Shown one piece after another: positions 48,352-55,180 of a stretch of DNA of 64,000 nucleotides. Where the stretch lies: positions 5,969,001 to 6,033,000 of the forward strand of contig NZ_BLPG01000001.1 in NCBI RefSeq assembly GCF_011764445.1, read 5' to 3'. Under the pieces are notes generated by a model, which saw only the letters and a program-made list of their open reading frames with translations, had not been told where the DNA came from and made no database searches. Made by a program: the position numbers and the translations under genes. This DNA is from Phytohabitans rumicis. GTDB lineage: Bacteria; Actinomycetota; Actinomycetes; Mycobacteriales; Micromonosporaceae. How positions within the stretch are numbered: position 1 is the first letter of the stretch; each line of letters starts with the position of its first letter.

Positions 48352-49140
48352 GTGGGTGAGGTGTATCTGGTGGAATTCGCCGTTCACGAACTGTTGCTGG
48401 ACATGCGGGGCGCGGCCCTGATCTGGCTCCTGCTGATCGCCGTCGGCGTCACACCGTTCATCGTCGTGGCGGCGCCACGACGCCGCGAAAAGCGGTCGCG
48501 GCCGCCGCGCCGGGAAAGGCCGCGGCGCGAGTCGTCCATCGTGCGGCAGGAGGAGCTTCTCCGGTACGCCGAAGAGGTCGCCGTTGCGGCGGGACGGGCT
48601 GCGGTGACGGCGGAGCGGCGGCGTGCCGAGTGGGCGGCCGTGTTGCGCACGCAGGAGGCCGCCTGGCGGGCGTACGACGAGGCCGAAGTCACCGCGCGAC
48701 GTGCTATTCGAGCGGAGGCGTTCGGACTGCCGGATACACCAGGCACAGTGGACGACCTGGCGGGCCGGCGTCGTTATCTTGAGCGGGCGGCCACGGCCGC
48801 GTACCGGCGGGGTGACCTGACGGTGGAGCAGTTCGGCGACGTGCTGTCCAATCGCGACGGTTGGGACCCACGCCGGCACCCGTTCGAGCAGGAGACCAAA
48901 CTGTGCGTGGCCCGGCGAGACCGGCTGCGCCGCGCCTGCGAAACACTGTCCGACGTGGAGCGTGCCGCGTGGCGTGCCGCCGAGGTGGCGGTGGCGGCGA
49001 AGCGCAGCCTGGACGAGGAGGCGTTGGCCGCCGGGCTGCGCGCACGGGACGTGCGCCGTCCGGTGCGCCGGCCGGTCCCCGTGCCGCGCCCGCTGCCGGC
49101 CTGGAACGCCGATACGGCCCCCATCCCGAGACTGGTTTAG
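48352..49140 (+). CDS. Single-pass membrane protein with long helical cytoplasmic domain, unknown
   Basis: Protein of 262 aa starting at GTG 48352 (GTG 48361 is an alternative). One transmembrane helix at about residues 18-40 (MRGAALIWLLLIAVGVTPFI), then a very basic stretch (RRREKRSRPPRRERPRRE) that would keep the rest in the cytoplasm. The remainder is Ala/Arg/Glu-rich and likely a coiled coil (AEEVAVAAGRAAVTAERRRA). No family recognised. It converges with the PucR gene, overlapping by 4 bp. Confidence 0.75.
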   Translation: MGEVYLVEFAVHELLLDMRGAALIWLLLIAVGVTPFIVVAAPRRREKRSRPPRRERPRRESSIVRQEELLRYAEEVAVAAGRAAVTAERRRAEWAAVLRTQEAAWRAYDEAEVTARRAIRAEAFGLPDTPGTVDDLAGRRRYLERAATAAYRRGDLTVEQFGDVLSNRDGWDPRRHPFEQETKLCVARRDRLRRACETLSDVERAAWRAAEVAVAAKRSLDEEALAAGLRARDVRRPVRRPVPVPRPLPAWNADTAPIPRLV

Positions 49141-50360
49141 GCCCAGTCGCCGGTCAGCCGGCCCAGCTTGAGCGCCAGGTGCAGGCAGAGCCGCTCGTTG
49201 CCGTCCTTGAGGTCGGTCTCGGCGAGTTGCTCGACGCGCTGCAGCCGGTAGTAGAGCGTGGTGCGGTGCAGGCGCAGCCGCTCGGCCGTGGCGTGCGCGT
49301 TGCCGGCCAGATCCAGGTAGGTCTCCAGCGTCTCCAGCAGCAGCTTGTTGGCCTCGTCGCGGAGCAGCCGCTCCAGCCCGGGATGCACGCCGCCCACGTC
49401 CAGGTGCCGACCGTCCAAACGGGACAGCACGCGGTAGATGCCGAGACCCGACCAGGCGACCACCCGGCCGAGCGCGGGCAGCTGCACGGCGACCCGCGCC
49501 GACTGCAGCGCCTCGTCGTACGACCGGGCGCCCTCGGCCAGGCTCGGGTACGTCTGCCCGACGCCCACGACCGTACGGCTGACCGAGGGGAGCCCGCGGG
49601 TGGCCGCCCGCAGCGCCTCGTCCAGCTGTGCCGCGGCGGTCTCGGGCGTGGGCCGGCCGGCACCCCCCGGCCCGCACAGCAGCACCACGCCGTGGTCGTG
49701 CCGCATCAGCTGCAGCGCGTCCCGGGGGCCGAGCCAGCGGCGGGTCAGCACCAGGGACTGCTCCAGCGCGATGCGGGCCACCTCGTCGGGGCCCTGGCCG
49801 GGCGGCGTGACGAGCTGCGCCACCAGCGCGGTGGTGGGCCCGTCACCACCGATGACGCCGTCCTCCAGCAGCGCCCGTACGGCGTGCGCGCGGCTGTCCG
49901 GGGCGTCCACGAGGAGCGTGCGGGCGGCCTCGGTCTCCCGCTGCGAGCTGAGCTCGCCGAGCAGGTTCTCCCGGTAGAGGGCGAGCTCCAGGTCCTCCAT
50001 CGCACCCGTCGCGGCCTCCACGTCGGCGTCGCTCATCGAGCCGTCGGCGTCGATGAACCAGACGAACCCCAGCAGCAGGTCGTCGTGCCAGACCGGCAGG
50101 CACAGCCGGGGCAACAGGTCGAGATCCGGGCAGGCCGGCGTCCGTACCGGCTTGCGGGCCCGCATGATGCCCGCCTCCCGGAACCAGGCGATGACCTCGG
50201 GCGTGGTGTGCCGGCGCAGGATCGAGGCGCGGCGCACGCCATCGATCGGCTCGGCGTGCTCGCTGTAGACGACGACCCGCTGCCGCCTGTCTTCGATCAG
50301 CGCCGGCTTTCCTACGCGGGCGGCGACCGTGTCTACGATCCGCTGTAGCTCACCTCGCAC
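49137..50360 (-). CDS. PucR-family transcriptional regulator, probable controller of the hydroxyproline operon
   Basis: Regulator of 407 aa. The N-terminal half is a GAF-like sensor region, the middle a GGDEF-like CdaR segment (VVGVGQTYPSLAEGARSYDE), and the C-terminal PucR HTH is LDLAGNAHATAERLRLHRTT followed by LYYRLQRVEQL. PucR proteins usually activate adjacent catabolic operons. The start is GTG 50360. The gene is divergent from the hydroxyproline dehydrogenase operon, separated by 401 bp that hold three large hairpins. Assignment as regulator of that operon rests on position. Confidence 0.88.
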   Translation of the reverse strand: MRGELQRIVDTVAARVGKPALIEDRRQRVVVYSEHAEPIDGVRRASILRRHTTPEVIAWFREAGIMRARKPVRTPACPDLDLLPRLCLPVWHDDLLLGFVWFIDADGSMSDADVEAATGAMEDLELALYRENLLGELSSQRETEAARTLLVDAPDSRAHAVRALLEDGVIGGDGPTTALVAQLVTPPGQGPDEVARIALEQSLVLTRRWLGPRDALQLMRHDHGVVLLCGPGGAGRPTPETAAAQLDEALRAATRGLPSVSRTVVGVGQTYPSLAEGARSYDEALQSARVAVQLPALGRVVAWSGLGIYRVLSRLDGRHLDVGGVHPGLERLLRDEANKLLLETLETYLDLAGNAHATAERLRLHRTTLYYRLQRVEQLAETDLKDGNERLCLHLALKLGRLTGDWA

Positions 50361-50374
50361 TGACTCACTGTAGG

Positions 50375-50449
50375 GGTTTTGGGGGCCGGGGTGCCCTGCG
50401 AAGCCCGTCAGGCTTGATGTCTTCGCAGGTCACCCCGGCCCCCAAAACC
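50375..50449 (-). repeat. Large hairpin element A (29-bp stem, 17-nt loop)
   Basis: Arms 50375-50403 and 50421-50449 pair over 29 positions with a single mismatch (50394 with 50430). The 17-nt loop is 50404-50420. Element B at 50600-50674 is an inverted copy with an identical loop; the two differ at four positions per arm, each matched by the partner change that keeps pairing. The element begins 14 bp upstream of the PucR start codon, so it lies in its 5' leader or promoter. Confidence 0.92.
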
Positions 50450-50485
50450 TGACGGGGGCACCCAGTCACAAGAGGGCAGGCAGGC

Positions 50486-50565
50486 TTTAAACCACTCGGG
50501 AGTCCCCGCCGGGGTCTGAGTCCCCGGGGACTCGAAGGTCGGCGGGGACTCCAGAGTGTTTTAAA
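50486..50565. repeat. Large hairpin element C with an inner palindrome
   Basis: Arms 50486-50511 and 50540-50565 pair over 26 positions with two mismatches; the outer part is TTTAAA/TTTAAA-like and the inner part GC-rich. The 28-nt loop contains the perfect 16-nt palindrome GAGTCCCCGGGGACTC (50518-50533), whose GAGTCCCC half also occurs in the outer arms, so alternative folds are possible. It sits between elements A and B and is unrelated to them in sequence. Confidence 0.88.
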
Positions 50566-50599
50566 AAGCGTGACCGTCTGTGTTTGCCCGACCAGGTCA

Positions 50600-50674
50600 G
50601 GGTTTGGGGGCCAGGGTGACTCGCGAAGACATCAAGCCTGACGGGCTTCGCGAGGCACCCTGGCCCCCAAACCC
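50600..50674 (+). repeat. Large hairpin element B, inverted copy of A
   Basis: Arms 50600-50628 and 50646-50674 form 29 positions of stem with one A.G mismatch (50619 with 50655), at the same place as the mismatch in element A. The 17-nt loop 50629-50645 is the exact reverse complement of the loop of A. It is preceded by GTCAGG, as is A in its own orientation. It lies 88 bp upstream of the dehydrogenase start. Confidence 0.92.
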
Positions 50675-50761
50675 CCCACCCCAGCCCCGACAGAAGGTCC
50701 AGCCACCGAGCCATCAAGTTCCAGCACATGTCCGAAGACCACCACATAGACAGTCCTTAAC

Positions 50762-51922
50762 GTGTGGACCGTGGCCGACGTAGTAGTGATCGGCGCGGGG
50801 ATAGTGGGCGCCGCGTGCGCACTGGAGTGCGCGAGGCGCGGCCTGTCCGTGGAGGTGCTGGAGCGGGGCGGGCTGGTTGCCGGTACCACCGGGTCCGGCG
50901 AGGGCAACCTGCTGGTCTCCGACAAGCCGCCCGGCCCGGAGCTGGACCTCGCTCTGCTCAGCCTGCGGCTGTGGCGGCGGATCGGCGCCGAGCTGCCCGA
51001 ACGGTACGGCGACATCGAGTTGGACCCCAAGGGCGGCCTGATCGTCACCCGTTCGGAGCCGGGGCTGGCCGCCCTGCGGGACACCGCCGAGCGGCAGGCC
51101 GCCGCCGGGGTGCTCGCCGAGCCGCTGGACGCGGCCGGCGTGCGCGTGCGCGAGCCGGCCATCGCGGATGGCCTCGCGGGCGGCGTGTTCTACCCGCAGG
51201 ACATGCAGGTGCAGCCGGCCCGGGCCACCGCGGTCATGCTGGCCGCCGCCCGGGACCATGGCGCCCGGGTACGGCTGCGCACGCCGGTGACCGCGATGCG
51301 GCTGGACCGGCGGGGGCGGGTGGCGGGGGTGGACACCGCGGAAGGCCCGGTCGCCGCGGCGCACGTCGTCAACGCCGCCGGCGCCTGGGCGGCCGAGGTC
51401 GCCGGGCCGGCCGGGGCCCTCGTACCGGTCCTGCCGCGGCGCGGGTTCGTCCTGGTCACCGAGCCGGTCGGGCCGCTGGTCCGGCACAAGGTGTACGCGG
51501 CCGACTACCTGGACAACGTGGCGTCCGGGGAGGCGACCCTGCAGGCGTCGACGGTGGTGGAGGGCACGCCGAGCGGCACGATCCTGATCGGCGCCACCCG
51601 GGAGCTCGTCGGGTTCGACCGCGGCGTCAACGGCGCCGCCGTCCGGGCGCTCGCCCGCGGCGCCATCGATCTCTTCCCGGCCCTCGCCCGGGTCCGGGCC
51701 ATGCGCCTGTACCACGGGTTCCGGCCGTTCTCGCCGGACCACCTGCCGGTCATCGGGCCGGACCCGCGGGTGCCCGGCCTGGTGCACGCGCATGGCCACG
51801 AGGGCGCCGGCATCGGGCTCGCCCCGGCCACCGGCCGGCTGGTCGCCCAGGCGGTCGCGGGGGAGCCGCCCGAACTGGACCTGACTCCCTTCGCGCCGGA
51901 ACGCTTCGGGGTGCCGCAATGA
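50762..51922 (+). CDS. FAD-dependent amino-acid oxidoreductase (DadA type), probable D-hydroxyproline dehydrogenase beta subunit
   Basis: Flavoprotein of 386 aa. The FAD-binding loop is DVVVIGAGIVGAACALECAR at residues 6-25. GSGEGNLLVSDK near residue 45, VVNAAGAWA, and RVRAMRLYHGFRPFSPDHLP with HGHEGAGIGLAPATG at the C-terminus are typical of the DAO/DadA family. The start is GTG 50762. It overlaps the next gene (51919), which encodes the partner ferredoxin/pyridine-nucleotide oxidoreductase subunit. With the epimerase and deaminase downstream it fits oxidation of cis-4-hydroxy-D-proline. Confidence 0.9.
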   Translation: MWTVADVVVIGAGIVGAACALECARRGLSVEVLERGGLVAGTTGSGEGNLLVSDKPPGPELDLALLSLRLWRRIGAELPERYGDIELDPKGGLIVTRSEPGLAALRDTAERQAAAGVLAEPLDAAGVRVREPAIADGLAGGVFYPQDMQVQPARATAVMLAAARDHGARVRLRTPVTAMRLDRRGRVAGVDTAEGPVAAAHVVNAAGAWAAEVAGPAGALVPVLPRRGFVLVTEPVGPLVRHKVYAADYLDNVASGEATLQASTVVEGTPSGTILIGATRELVGFDRGVNGAAVRALARGAIDLFPALARVRAMRLYHGFRPFSPDHLPVIGPDPRVPGLVHAHGHEGAGIGLAPATGRLVAQAVAGEPPELDLTPFAPERFGVPQ

Positions 51923-53305
51923 GCCTTTTCTGCGGCATCGGTGTCTGCTTCGCCTGCGTCTCCGAGACGGGGGACCGCACCTGCCTGCCGGAGGCCGCCG
52001 AACCCGGCGCCGCGCCAGGAGAGCCGGACGTCGCCGTGGTCGGGGCGGGGCCGGCGGGGTTGAGCGCGGCGGTGGCGGCCGCGGACGCCGGGGCGGACGT
52101 CACGGTCGTCGACATGGGGCGCACCCCGGCGGGCAGTACCTGCGCGGCCAGGCGGACGCCCCACTGGTACGCCGGGCGACCGGCCACGCTCGGGTCCGGT
52201 TCCTGTCCGGGCACGAGGTGTGGCGGGTCACGCCTGAGCGGGAGATCAGGGCGGGCCGGCACACGCTCCGCCCCGGTGCGGTGGTGCTGGCGCCCGGCGC
52301 GTACGACCGGGTGGTGCCGTTTCCGGGCTGGGACCTGCCGGGCGTCGTCACGGCCGGGGGCGCCCAGGCACACGCCAAGAACAGCGGTGTACCGGTCGGC
52401 CAGCGGGTGCTCGTCGCCGGCACCGGCCCGTTCCTGCTCGCGGTCGCCGCCACCCTCGCCGGGGTCGGTGCCGACGTGGTGGCCGTGGTCGAGGCGGCGC
52501 GGCTGTCCCGGTGGCTGCGCCATCCCGGCGCGGTGCTGCGCTCGCCCGGCCGCGTGCTGGAGGCCGGCCGGTACCTGAGCCGGCGGATCCCGCTCTGGCA
52601 GGGCAGCGCGGTCACCGCGGTCGAGCCGTACGGCGCCGCGCTCAGAGCCACTGTGGACGGTCACGGCACCGTCGACGTGGACGCCGTCTGCGTGGGGCAC
52701 GGCTTCACCCCGTCGGTGGAGCTGGCCCTGGCGTTCGGGTGCGCGACGCGTACCGACCCGCGCGACGGCAGCCTCGTGGTAGCCGTCGACGACGACCAGC
52801 GGACCACCGTCCCGGGGTGCTGGCCGCCGGGGAGGCGACCGGGATCGGTGGCGCCGCCCTCGCCGTGGCCGAGGGCACCATCGCCGGGTACGCCGCGGCA
52901 CACCACATCGGACTGATCGACGACTCAACCCTGGCCCGCGCGGTGTCGCCGTACCAGCGCAGGCGCGCGGCCCGGCGGCGTTTCGCGGACGCCCTGCACG
53001 CGGTGTATCCGGCACCGGCGGCGGCGCTGGACGACGCCACCACGCTGTGCCGCTGCGAACGGGTGACGGCTGGCCGGGCCCGCGCCGACATCCACCGGTA
53101 CGGCATCGACGACGCGCGCGCCCTCAAGCTGCTGACCCGGGTCGGGATGGGCCGGTGCCAGGGCCGGATGTGCGGACGCGCCGCGCTCGACCTGCTCGAA
53201 GCGGAGACCGGGCGGGCCCAGGATCCGGCCGGCTTCGCCAACCGCACCATCGCCATGCCCGTGCCGTTGGGCATTGTGGCCGAAGAAAGGAATCAAACAC
53301 CGTGA
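51919..53305 (+). pseudogene. Iron-sulfur/FAD/NAD oxidoreductase subunit (HcnAB/OoxA-like) with two apparent -1 frameshifts
   Basis: Starts at ATG 51919 with a short 2Fe-2S remnant (FCGIGVCFACV), then the FAD loop VAVVGAGPAGLSAAVAAADA. After VVDMG the frame breaks at the GGGG run 52116-52119; the family pattern HPGGQYLRGQAD continues in the next frame, through VVLAPGAYDRVVPFPG and AGTGPFLLAVAATLAGVG. It breaks again at the GGGG run 52814-52817, where VLAAGEATGIGG continues in the third frame to 53305. The C-terminal BFD-like cluster has CRCERV and GRCQGRMCG. Adding one G at each run gives one protein of about 462 aa that overlaps the next gene by GTGA. Confidence 0.85.
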
Positions 53306-54186
53306 ACAAGCCCTGGCGCGGCGTCGTGGTGGCCATCGCCACGCCGTTCCGCGACGACCTGTCCGTCGACATCGACCGCCTCCAGGAGCACGTGCGCTGG
53401 CTCGCGGCCGAGGGCTGCCACGGCGTCACGCCGAACGGCTCGCTCGGCGAGTACCAGACGCTCAGCGACGGCGAGCGCGCGGACATCGTCCGGGCCGCGG
53501 TCGAGGCCGCGCCGCCGGGCCTCGCGGTGGTGCCGGGCGTCAGCGCGTACGGCGGCCACCAGTCCCGCCGCTGGGCCGAGCAGGCCGCCGAGGCGGGCGC
53601 CCACGCGGTGCTCTGCCTGCCGCCCAACGCCTACCGGGCCCGTCCGTCCGAAGTGGTGGAACACTTCCGCGCGGTCGCCGGCGCCGGCCTACCCGTGGTG
53701 GCGTACAACAACCCGTACGACACCCGGGTGGATCTCACCCCGGAGCTGGTCGCCACCCTCGCCGAGATCGACGGCATCGTGGCGGTGAAGGAGTTCAGCG
53801 GCGACGTGCGGCGCCTGCACCGCATCCGTGACCTGTGCCCGCACGTGGACGTGCTCGCCGGCGCGGACGACGTGCTGCTGGAACTGATGGCGTGCGGCGC
53901 CACCGGGTGGATCGCCGGCTTTCCCAACGCGCTGCCCCGGGTGTCGCTGCGGCTGTACGAGCTGTGCGCGGCCGGCGACCTGGCCCGCGCGCTGCCGCTC
54001 TACGCCGAGCTGCATCCGATGTTCGGCTGGGACTCCCGGTCCGAGTTCATCCAGGCCATCAAGCTGGCGATGGAGATCGTCGGCCGGTACGGCGGGCCCT
54101 GCCGGCTACCCCGCTTGCCGCTGCCGCCCGACCTGACCGCGCAGGTACGCAAGGACGTCGCCCGCGCGGTGGTAGCCGATGCGTAG
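53302..54186 (+). CDS. Dihydrodipicolinate-synthase-family enzyme, probable pyrroline-4-hydroxy-2-carboxylate deaminase
   Basis: Class I aldolase-fold enzyme of 294 aa. The Schiff-base lysine is Lys163 in GIVAVKEFSGD and the tyrosine is Tyr135 in VVAYNNPYDTR. TPNGSLGEYQTLSDGER is the pyruvate-binding GTTGE-like loop, here NGSLGE, as in the hydroxyproline-pathway branch. It would convert 1-pyrroline-4-hydroxy-2-carboxylate to 2-oxoglutarate semialdehyde and ammonia. The start is GTG 53302 over the preceding stop, and its 3' end overlaps the epimerase gene by 8 bp. Confidence 0.88.
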   Translation: MNKPWRGVVVAIATPFRDDLSVDIDRLQEHVRWLAAEGCHGVTPNGSLGEYQTLSDGERADIVRAAVEAAPPGLAVVPGVSAYGGHQSRRWAEQAAEAGAHAVLCLPPNAYRARPSEVVEHFRAVAGAGLPVVAYNNPYDTRVDLTPELVATLAEIDGIVAVKEFSGDVRRLHRIRDLCPHVDVLAGADDVLLELMACGATGWIAGFPNALPRVSLRLYELCAAGDLARALPLYAELHPMFGWDSRSEFIQAIKLAMEIVGRYGGPCRLPRLPLPPDLTAQVRKDVARAVVADA

Positions 54187-55180
54187 CCGCCTGGTCCTGC
54201 ACGCCGTCGACTCGCACACCGAGGGCATGCCGACCCGGGTGGTCACCGGCGGCGTGGGCGTGCTGCCGGGGGCGACGATGTTCGAGCGCAAGCAGCTCTT
54301 CGAGCGCGACCGGGAGGGCCTGCTTCGGTTTCTGATGTACGAGCCGCGCGGGCACTCGGCGATGTCCGGCGCGATCCTGCAGCCGCCGACCCGGCCGGAC
54401 GCGGACTTCGGCGTGCTCTTCATCGAGGTGTCCGGCTGCCTGCCGATGTGCGGGCACGGCACGATCGGGGTGGCCACCGTGCTCGTCGAGACCGGCATGG
54501 TCGCCGTCGAGGAGCCGGTCACCACGATCCGCCTGGACACCCCGGCCGGGCTGGTCACCGCCGAGGTCGAGGTCGCGGACGGGCGGGCCCGCTCGGTGAC
54601 CATCCGCAACGTGCCGTCGTTTCTGCTCGCCGCCGACCAGTGCGTCGAGGTGGCCGGCATTGGGCCGGTGCGGTACGACATGGCGTTCGGCGGCAACTTC
54701 TACGCCATTGTGGACGCCGCCATGTTGGGCCTGCCGGTGCGCCCGCACGCTGTGCGGGAACTGATCCGGCGGGGCCTGGCGGTGATGGACACCATCAACG
54801 AGCGCGCCCGACCGGTGCACCCGGCCAACGCGGCGATCGACGACTGCCGGCACGTGCAGGTGGTCGAGGCCGGCCGGGACGGCGCGGACGCCCGCAACGC
54901 GGTCGTCATCCACCCCGGCTGGGTGGACCGCTCCCCGTGTGGCACCGGTACGTCCGCCCGGATGGCCCAACTACACGCGCGTGGCCTGCTGGCGCTGGAC
55001 ACCCCGTTCGTCAACGAGTCGGTGTTGGGCACCCGCTTCACCGGGCGGCTCGTCGACACCACCAGCGTGGCCGGCCTGCCCGCCGTCGTGCCGACGGTGA
55101 CCGGGCGGGCCTGGATCACCGGCACCGCGCAGTACCTGCTCGACCCGGAAGACCCCTTTCCCGAGGGGTTCCTCCTATAG
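54179..55180 (+). CDS. 4-Hydroxyproline 2-epimerase (proline racemase family)
   Basis: Enzyme of 333 aa. Both catalytic cysteines are present: Cys91 in PMCGHGTIG and Cys254 in DRSPCGTGTSAR. A Cys/Cys pair is the signature of racemases and 4-hydroxyproline epimerases, as against the Thr-containing dehydratases. DSHTEGMPTRVVTGG is the family N-terminus. It converts trans-4-hydroxy-L-proline to cis-4-hydroxy-D-proline, the first step of the pathway whose later enzymes lie directly upstream. The semialdehyde dehydrogenase that would finish the route is not in the window. Confidence 0.92.
   Translation: MRSRLVLHAVDSHTEGMPTRVVTGGVGVLPGATMFERKQLFERDREGLLRFLMYEPRGHSAMSGAILQPPTRPDADFGVLFIEVSGCLPMCGHGTIGVATVLVETGMVAVEEPVTTIRLDTPAGLVTAEVEVADGRARSVTIRNVPSFLLAADQCVEVAGIGPVRYDMAFGGNFYAIVDAAMLGLPVRPHAVRELIRRGLAVMDTINERARPVHPANAAIDDCRHVQVVEAGRDGADARNAVVIHPGWVDRSPCGTGTSARMAQLHARGLLALDTPFVNESVLGTRFTGRLVDTTSVAGLPAVVPTVTGRAWITGTAQYLLDPEDPFPEGFLL

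Follow-up and report, generated by a model that had tools for sequence, protein, structure and literature searches.

Closest described systems

MITEs are non-autonomous terminal-inverted-repeat elements. The element described here was found in a window of 64,000 nucleotides (the whole stretch of DNA that was analysed) from the actinomycete Phytohabitans rumicis. It resembles MITEs in its unit of ~280–310 bp, its long inverted ends, the existence of several diverged copies and its distinguishable ends, named alpha and beta. It differs from them in that its subunits also live as single hairpins in relatives; a consistent target-site duplication and an autonomous partner were not recognised in the copies and end-like patterns inspected.

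With REP, BIME and REPIN sequences the element shares the features of dispersed extragenic palindromes that occur in inverted pairs, often with non-identical partners. In passages of PMC3733652, non-identical partners are described as preferred in most of the families treated there, for a cause that is not obvious, and an excerpt of PMC3116915 presents compensatory changes in the spacer hairpins of REPINs as common. The stem is here ~28 bp long, whereas the same passages give 5–13 bp for GTAG and 8–9 bp for CGTC REPs (PMC3733652). A near-invariant loop on a hypervariable stem, present in at least 27 copies, is a further difference. The CGTC REPs also seem to be without a dedicated transposase according to these passages (PMC3733652), so that no difference exists on this point. 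As for enzymes acting on such structures, known single-strand transposases touch the loops and mismatches of hairpins (excerpt of PMC8266576).

I-shaped terminators are a class defined by shape (compare passages of PMC5335608). The hairpins reported here are similar to them in being strong, GC-rich, devoid of a U-tract and located in sense soon after stop codons, the latter as a tendency that the window copy does not follow. They are unlike them in belonging to a single sequence family whose 12-nt loop is constant and which has spread as a repeat. Transcription termination without a U-tract is a disputed matter; the same passages (PMC5335608) cite work in which a U-tract is required by the RNA polymerase of mycobacteria. 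Judged from sequence, the element would work most like a gene-end hairpin without U-tail and spread like a REP, and by the features tested it is not of the REPIN/RAYT type.

Structure and context of the element in the window

The element is located between a gene encoding a PucR-type regulator (49137–50360, minus strand; Pfam HTH_30 and GGDEF_2) and a gene encoding a FAD-dependent oxidoreductase (DAO; 50762–51922, plus strand). The composite element, an inverted pair of hairpins around a third one, spans positions 50370–50679 (no strand assigned), and eight full-length copies of it were aligned. As a whole, these 310 bp constitute one imperfect inverted repeat, with arms of 112 nt (50370–50481 and 50568–50679) agreeing at 80%.

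Hairpin A (50375–50449, plus strand) is of the alpha type, with the stem CCTGCGAAG...CTTCGCAGG formed by the arms 50375–50403 and 50421–50449. It was scored at 95.3 bits by a covariance model made from 47 distinct hairpins. Hairpin B (50600–50674, minus strand), of the beta type and inverted with respect to A, has the stem CTCGCGAAG...CTTCGCGAG (arms 50600–50628 and 50646–50674) and a score of 92.9 bits. In both hairpins the arms are 29 nt long and 97% complementary with a single C/T mismatch, and they enclose a 17-nt loop containing the near-invariant sequence GTCAGGCTTGAT (50407–50418, plus strand, in A; 50631–50642, minus strand, in B). The central hairpin C (50486–50565, no strand assigned) contains GAGTCCCCGGGGACTC and displays 40-nt arms with 83% complementarity. 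Folding energies of about −65 kcal/mol were predicted for each of A and B. In comparison with shuffled sequences, z-scores of −10.8 (A), −10.7 (B) and −7.1 (C) were obtained, and the entire 401-nt intergenic region reached −13.4 on the plus and −12.1 on the minus strand.

The original prediction had described two inverted 29-position stems with 17-nt loops and a third hairpin between them, and it was exact to the base. It was also right in claiming that A and B, put in the same orientation, have identical loops and differ at stem positions 3, 14, 22 and 23, each change being compensated in the opposite arm. Hairpin C, which it considered as unrelated, is found inside the full-length unit at other copies as well: BLAST matches were obtained in six of the seven other full-length units, and it can be aligned in all eight.

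The start codon of pucR, supported by the orthologues in L285 and L286, is situated 14 nt from hairpin A. The start codons of pucR and of the oxidase gene are separated by 401 bp in the window, compared to 47 bp in G057, a relative of the same genus, and 278 bp in G010. In the loci fetched for the orthologous divergons of G057, G010 and G009, no match to the model fell below E = 0.2. The hairpin is thus absent at the orthologous site in three relatives, which indicates that this lineage acquired the window unit. A block upstream of the oxidase gene (50688–50739, plus strand) is common to G010 by eye, and the upstream region of this gene therefore seems intact; the block is possibly the old promoter/operator left untouched by the element. 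Directly 5' of the GTG of pucR lies a TACAGT hexamer that might allow leaderless initiation. With its place between divergent genes the window copy is unusual, and a 3'-end signal has no obvious gene to end there.

The oxidase gene is followed on the same strand by a DHDPS-family gene and a proline racemase family gene, and the three together (50762–55180) are probably to be labelled a hydroxyproline catabolic cluster.

Copies in the genome of Phytohabitans rumicis

The 10.7-Mb genome was scanned with the covariance model by scoring the best 150 of 16,785 candidates, which revealed at least 27 hairpins arranged as 12 pairs, all of them inverted, and three solo hairpins. All 27 were scored at 82.9 bits or above; among the candidates scored, the next matches were readings of these hairpins on the antisense strand, followed by a single site at 20.3 bits. 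Such a search for further copies had been proposed in the original prediction, and it delivered many, with the pairs in inverted orientation. The genome contains 26 exact copies of the 12-mer GTCAGGCTTGAT, every one of them forming the loop of a hairpin, and the 27th hairpin has one base changed. The reversed 12-mer, used as a control pattern, does not occur in the genome.

BLAST analysis of the genome identified seven other full-length units in addition to shorter ones, giving eight A-C-B units including that of the window. All eight carry a CCTGCG-type stem at one end and a CTCGCG-type stem at the other, in either orientation (CCAGCG and CCTGAG variants being scored as CCTGCG-type). As the unit has two distinct ends in all eight copies, the difference between A and B was inherited and did not arise at the window site. 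Given how many copies lie elsewhere, one local template switch is excluded as the source of the symmetry of the arms. The units of L034 and L036 are 93% identical over 296 bp, with the similarity ending near the unit ends. On sequence grounds this speaks for copying, conversion between old copies being the alternative.

Distribution across genomes

Among 300 genomes of Micromonosporaceae (window genome included), 157 gave a model match at E ≤ 1e-6, and these carriers span 18 of 44 genera; the best 16 candidates per genome were scored, and copy numbers and absences in this and the other genome scans are not exhaustive. Across the phylum, two of 396 genomes matched when the best 12 candidates of each were scored, namely the window genome and another member of the Micromonosporaceae. 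A scan of named genomes with the loop pattern yielded at least 120 stretches, and 116 of the matches listed bear Micromonosporaceae names. One listed match, a metagenome bin designated 'Actinomycetes bacterium' (L248), contains a full hairpin of 50.8 bits. Three other listed matches belong to Pseudomonas (L254, L262, L278); the loop word lies within similar sequence in all three, and a model match, a weak one of 38.2 bits, was obtained in L254 alone. The Pseudomonas loop matches were taken as chance. The hairpin family thus appears to be spread through Micromonospora, Actinoplanes and relatives, and to be almost confined to one bacterial family in the sample analysed.

One pattern scan of viruses gave no match, and the search of plasmids gave one 22-base match at E = 1. 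With Rfam 15, 21 matches at E ≤ 1 were obtained in the window stretch, none of them reaching the gathering score and most of them to microRNA models; in seven other loci, the threshold was reached by rRNA only. No description of the hairpin family was found in searches of an open-access library, and it is apparently undescribed so far.

Covariation of the stem and constancy of the loop

The ~28-bp stem is variable yet covarying, and the 12-nt loop is nearly constant. The 47 sequences underlying the model were derived from 58 units, from which three mirror readings, one unit with three changes in the loop and then all exact duplicates were removed. In their alignment, 86.9% of the stem cells pair. 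Two-sided changes were detected in 23 of 32 pairs, compared to a shuffled mean of 17.0, and in 218 cells, compared to 66.0 (sd 5.9) after shuffling and at most 95 in controls with slid partners. A larger alignment was prepared from 129 aligned matches, of which 39 were dropped (antisense readings, duplicates, loop not matching). Its 90 distinct sense rows, fitted to the model and also selected for the loop, showed two-sided changes in 26 of 31 pairs, where shuffling gave a mean of 21.5 and a maximum of 25, and in 661 cells, where it gave a mean of 223 and a maximum of 253. Kinship of the sequences inflates such counts; the comparison with slid partners is more reliable.

All loop positions are invariant in the 47 rows with the exception of one G/A position. 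In a survey of 55 hairpin units from BLAST-found loci, in which loops with up to three changes were accepted, the loop was exact in 51 units, changed at one position in three and at three positions in one. The pattern scan is uninformative on loop constancy, as it used the loop as bait and is thus circular in this respect. According to these alignments, the structure is under constraint and the loop under stronger sequence constraint. In L146, a locus with 23S and 5S rRNA, words of 8–10 bases from the loop were found nowhere beyond the hairpin itself.

Position of the hairpins relative to genes

The genomic position was scored at 81 sites in at least 120 pattern-fetched loci, leaving out sites less than 700 nt from a locus end. 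Nine sites overlapping a called gene were removed, which left 72 (68 single and four paired). A sense stop codon within 30 nt on the 5' side was present for 34 of the 72 hairpins, compared to 10% of 3,160 random intergenic segments from the same loci; as a counterpoint, 38 of the 72 sites lack a called sense stop within 30 nt, and nine more overlap a called gene. In convergent gaps, the sense stop was the nearer one at 26 of 30 sites. Over the 81 scored sites, 50 of 57 upstream genes within 150 nt are directed towards the hairpin. Single hairpins in tandem gene contexts are in sense at 31 of 39 sites. Where a single hairpin is preceded by a sense gene (60 cases), the median distance from stop codon to hairpin is ~25 nt. 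In a separate set of loci, 62 of 81 resolved sites were in sense, and the count within 120 nt was 49 versus 9. The p-values obtained for the stop codon within 30 nt (1.6e-15), the convergent gaps (6e-5) and the tandem contexts (3e-4) are all too small, because the gene calls are crude (GC3-based) and orthologous sites were counted repeatedly; the direction of the effect is consistent.

In two rRNA operons (L146 and L150, checked with Rfam), the hairpin is located in sense 91–101 nt 3' of the 5S rRNA. By eye, an apparently good U-tailed terminator is already present between the 5S rRNA and the hairpin in L146, where the hairpin would thus be redundant as a terminator. A T-rich tail follows six of 207 hairpins.

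All 22 distinct intact pairs spaced by less than 2 kb are inverted and of one polarity, with the sense strands directed inward, as expected where the end signals of two convergent genes meet. A second, truncated copy in L234, in direct orientation at 175 bp from the intact one, failed the stem criterion and stands outside these 22 pairs. No pair with a spacer below 1.3 kb has identical arms in ungapped comparison, the closest agreement being 55 of 57 positions in a pair spaced by 983 bp; the sole pair with identical arms has a spacer of 1,356 bp. Selection may act against long perfect palindromes.

Gain, loss and ends of the unit

The 3' end of polA in Micromonospora offered a site to compare genomes with and without the hairpin. 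A hairpin in sense to polA is present in 13 of 41 genomes (one with a changed loop base), a proportion that is not a frequency, as the 41 genomes were those of 61 with both flanks resolved and were best matches or hand-picked. In two genomes the site holds a stub in which the loop and the inner stem are deleted, and other gaps are as short as 11 bp. The stubs in the polA 3' gap of L308 and L309, from two Micromonospora, consist of the outer stem only and represent a natural loop-less variant.

With a TA/CTAG target as a candidate, the ends of the units were compared: the outer ends of several (L030–L036, L040) adjoin CTAG or CTAA, which is partly the stop codon of the neighbouring gene, and some ends are without it. 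The L036 unit is bordered on either side by the 10-bp direct repeat CCTCTTCTAG, a candidate target-site duplication that belongs in part to the end of the element. No such duplication was obvious by eye around the seven remaining full-length copies, and hence no consistent one was recognised. The genes flanking the L036 unit have their matches ~1 Mb apart in G077, the sole relative of the same genus in which both were found, so this unit may mark a rearrangement junction.

Distant inverted pairs bracket stretches of 0.5–1.4 kb (L071 3107–4240, L082 3032–4165, L083 3195–3878 and L144 3806–5299). The stretches of L082 and L083 are largely self-complementary, with arms of 142 nt and 89 nt in the former and 237 nt in the latter. 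Open reading frames of up to 304 aa are contained in distant pairs, and the eight tested had no Pfam match. Repeats of 2.5–3.7 kb near identical-scoring hairpins (L146, L147 and L149; L150 and L152) were considered as a candidate transposon and rejected, both tested loci (L146 and L150) being rRNA operons. In a search of the own genome for end-like patterns, no transposon-like pair was recognised among the matches, of which those with a hairpin were inspected more closely.

Proposed function and alternative explanations

The explanation to which we give slightly better than even credit is a Micromonosporaceae-wide set of transcript 3'-end hairpins that was multiplied as a dispersed repeat. As RNA, the hairpin would end or protect the transcript, acting as a U-tail-less I-shaped terminator or as a 3'-end block. 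A trans-acting factor would make its contact at the constant loop and require no more of the stem than its shape, and a pair would be a bidirectional end signal serving two convergent genes. Two inverted hairpins and hairpin C would then have become the ~280–310-bp unit, copied to new sites in this genome. In the window, the unit would occupy the place of old sequence immediately upstream of pucR, where it would insulate pucR from the oxidase gene, and the promoters from each other and from read-through. A more specific version can be put forward tentatively: a new factor-dependent transcript-end signal, in which a protein or RNA of Micromonosporaceae would read the 12-nt loop on any 28-bp stem and end or mature transcripts, the signal having spread as a repeat. 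A transposase could equally be the reader of the loop.

An exclusively post-transcriptional role, in which the hairpin caps the 3'-UTR against exonucleases or is the target of a ribonuclease and termination occurs elsewhere, is possible, if doubtful; it overlaps with the transcript-end explanation, so that the probabilities of these readings do not add up to one. It would be in line with the very stable predicted fold of A and B, with the rarity of U-tails, with the sense placement after stop codons, and with the position 3' of an apparent terminator in one rRNA operon, but a plain exonuclease block needs no constant loop. We regard as rather unlikely that the family is purely selfish DNA, a REPIN- or MITE-like hairpin whose constant loop is read by a transposase and whose gene-end position reflects the least harmful insertion. 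The multi-copy composite unit, including two closely similar copies whose resemblance stops near the unit's ends, the lineage-specific gains, the single polarity of the 22 inverted pairs and the precedent for loop contacts in single-strand transposases (PMC8266576, in excerpt) would agree with it. Tolerance alone would be strand-neutral in convergent gaps, and from it the sense bias and the short distance to stop codons are unexpected. The lack of a consistent target-site duplication by eye and of Pfam matches for the eight reading frames of distant pairs also speaks against selfish DNA, as do the results for the Y1 transposase: PF01797 had no match in the own genome, and within Micromonosporaceae it was found in 41 of the 157 genomes that carry the hairpin and in 43 of the 143 that do not (p = 0.52), which is no association.

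Membership in the REPIN/RAYT systems was rejected on the Y1 transposase, the GTAG tag and the stem length. Among 207 hairpins, GTAG was found near the 5' end in six and CGTC in four, and CGTC near the 3' end in 31. GTGG, mentioned as the degenerate tag of one REP family in passages of PMC3733652, occurs close to the 5' end of 84 of the 207 hairpins, a raw count in a G-rich context. From the earlier suggestion of a REPIN or small mobile element, the repeat family is thus retained, with its 27 or more hairpins, eight units and a site unoccupied in relatives, and the REPIN/RAYT form is abandoned. A further suggestion was a regulatory structure serving the pucR/hydroxyproline divergon itself. The placement exactly between both genes and so near to the pucR start would fit, but the orthologous divergons in G057, G010 and G009 are without hairpin, and the same hairpins adjoin many unrelated genes, often after the stop codon, as well as rRNA operons. 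In view of these neighbours, a divergon-specific role as the reason for the element is unsupported, and we consider this reading as highly improbable; a local effect on pucR is possible.

If the factor-dependent version is true, the repeat would supply ready-made, paired and bidirectional gene ends. For the disputed ending of transcripts without U-tract in GC-rich actinobacteria (passages of PMC5335608), the hairpin family would be a concrete and testable handle, with ~200 distinct natural variants, orthologous sites both with and without the hairpin, and a defined bait with which to look for what binds it.

The flanks of 208 hairpins were also compared. TTGCGGT or TCGCGGT occurs 5' of the hairpin in 41 of them, and a word similar to GACCTGGTC occurs 3' of the hairpin in 46 (both raw counts). 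These recurrent, degenerate flank motifs suggest that the functional unit may exceed the hairpin.
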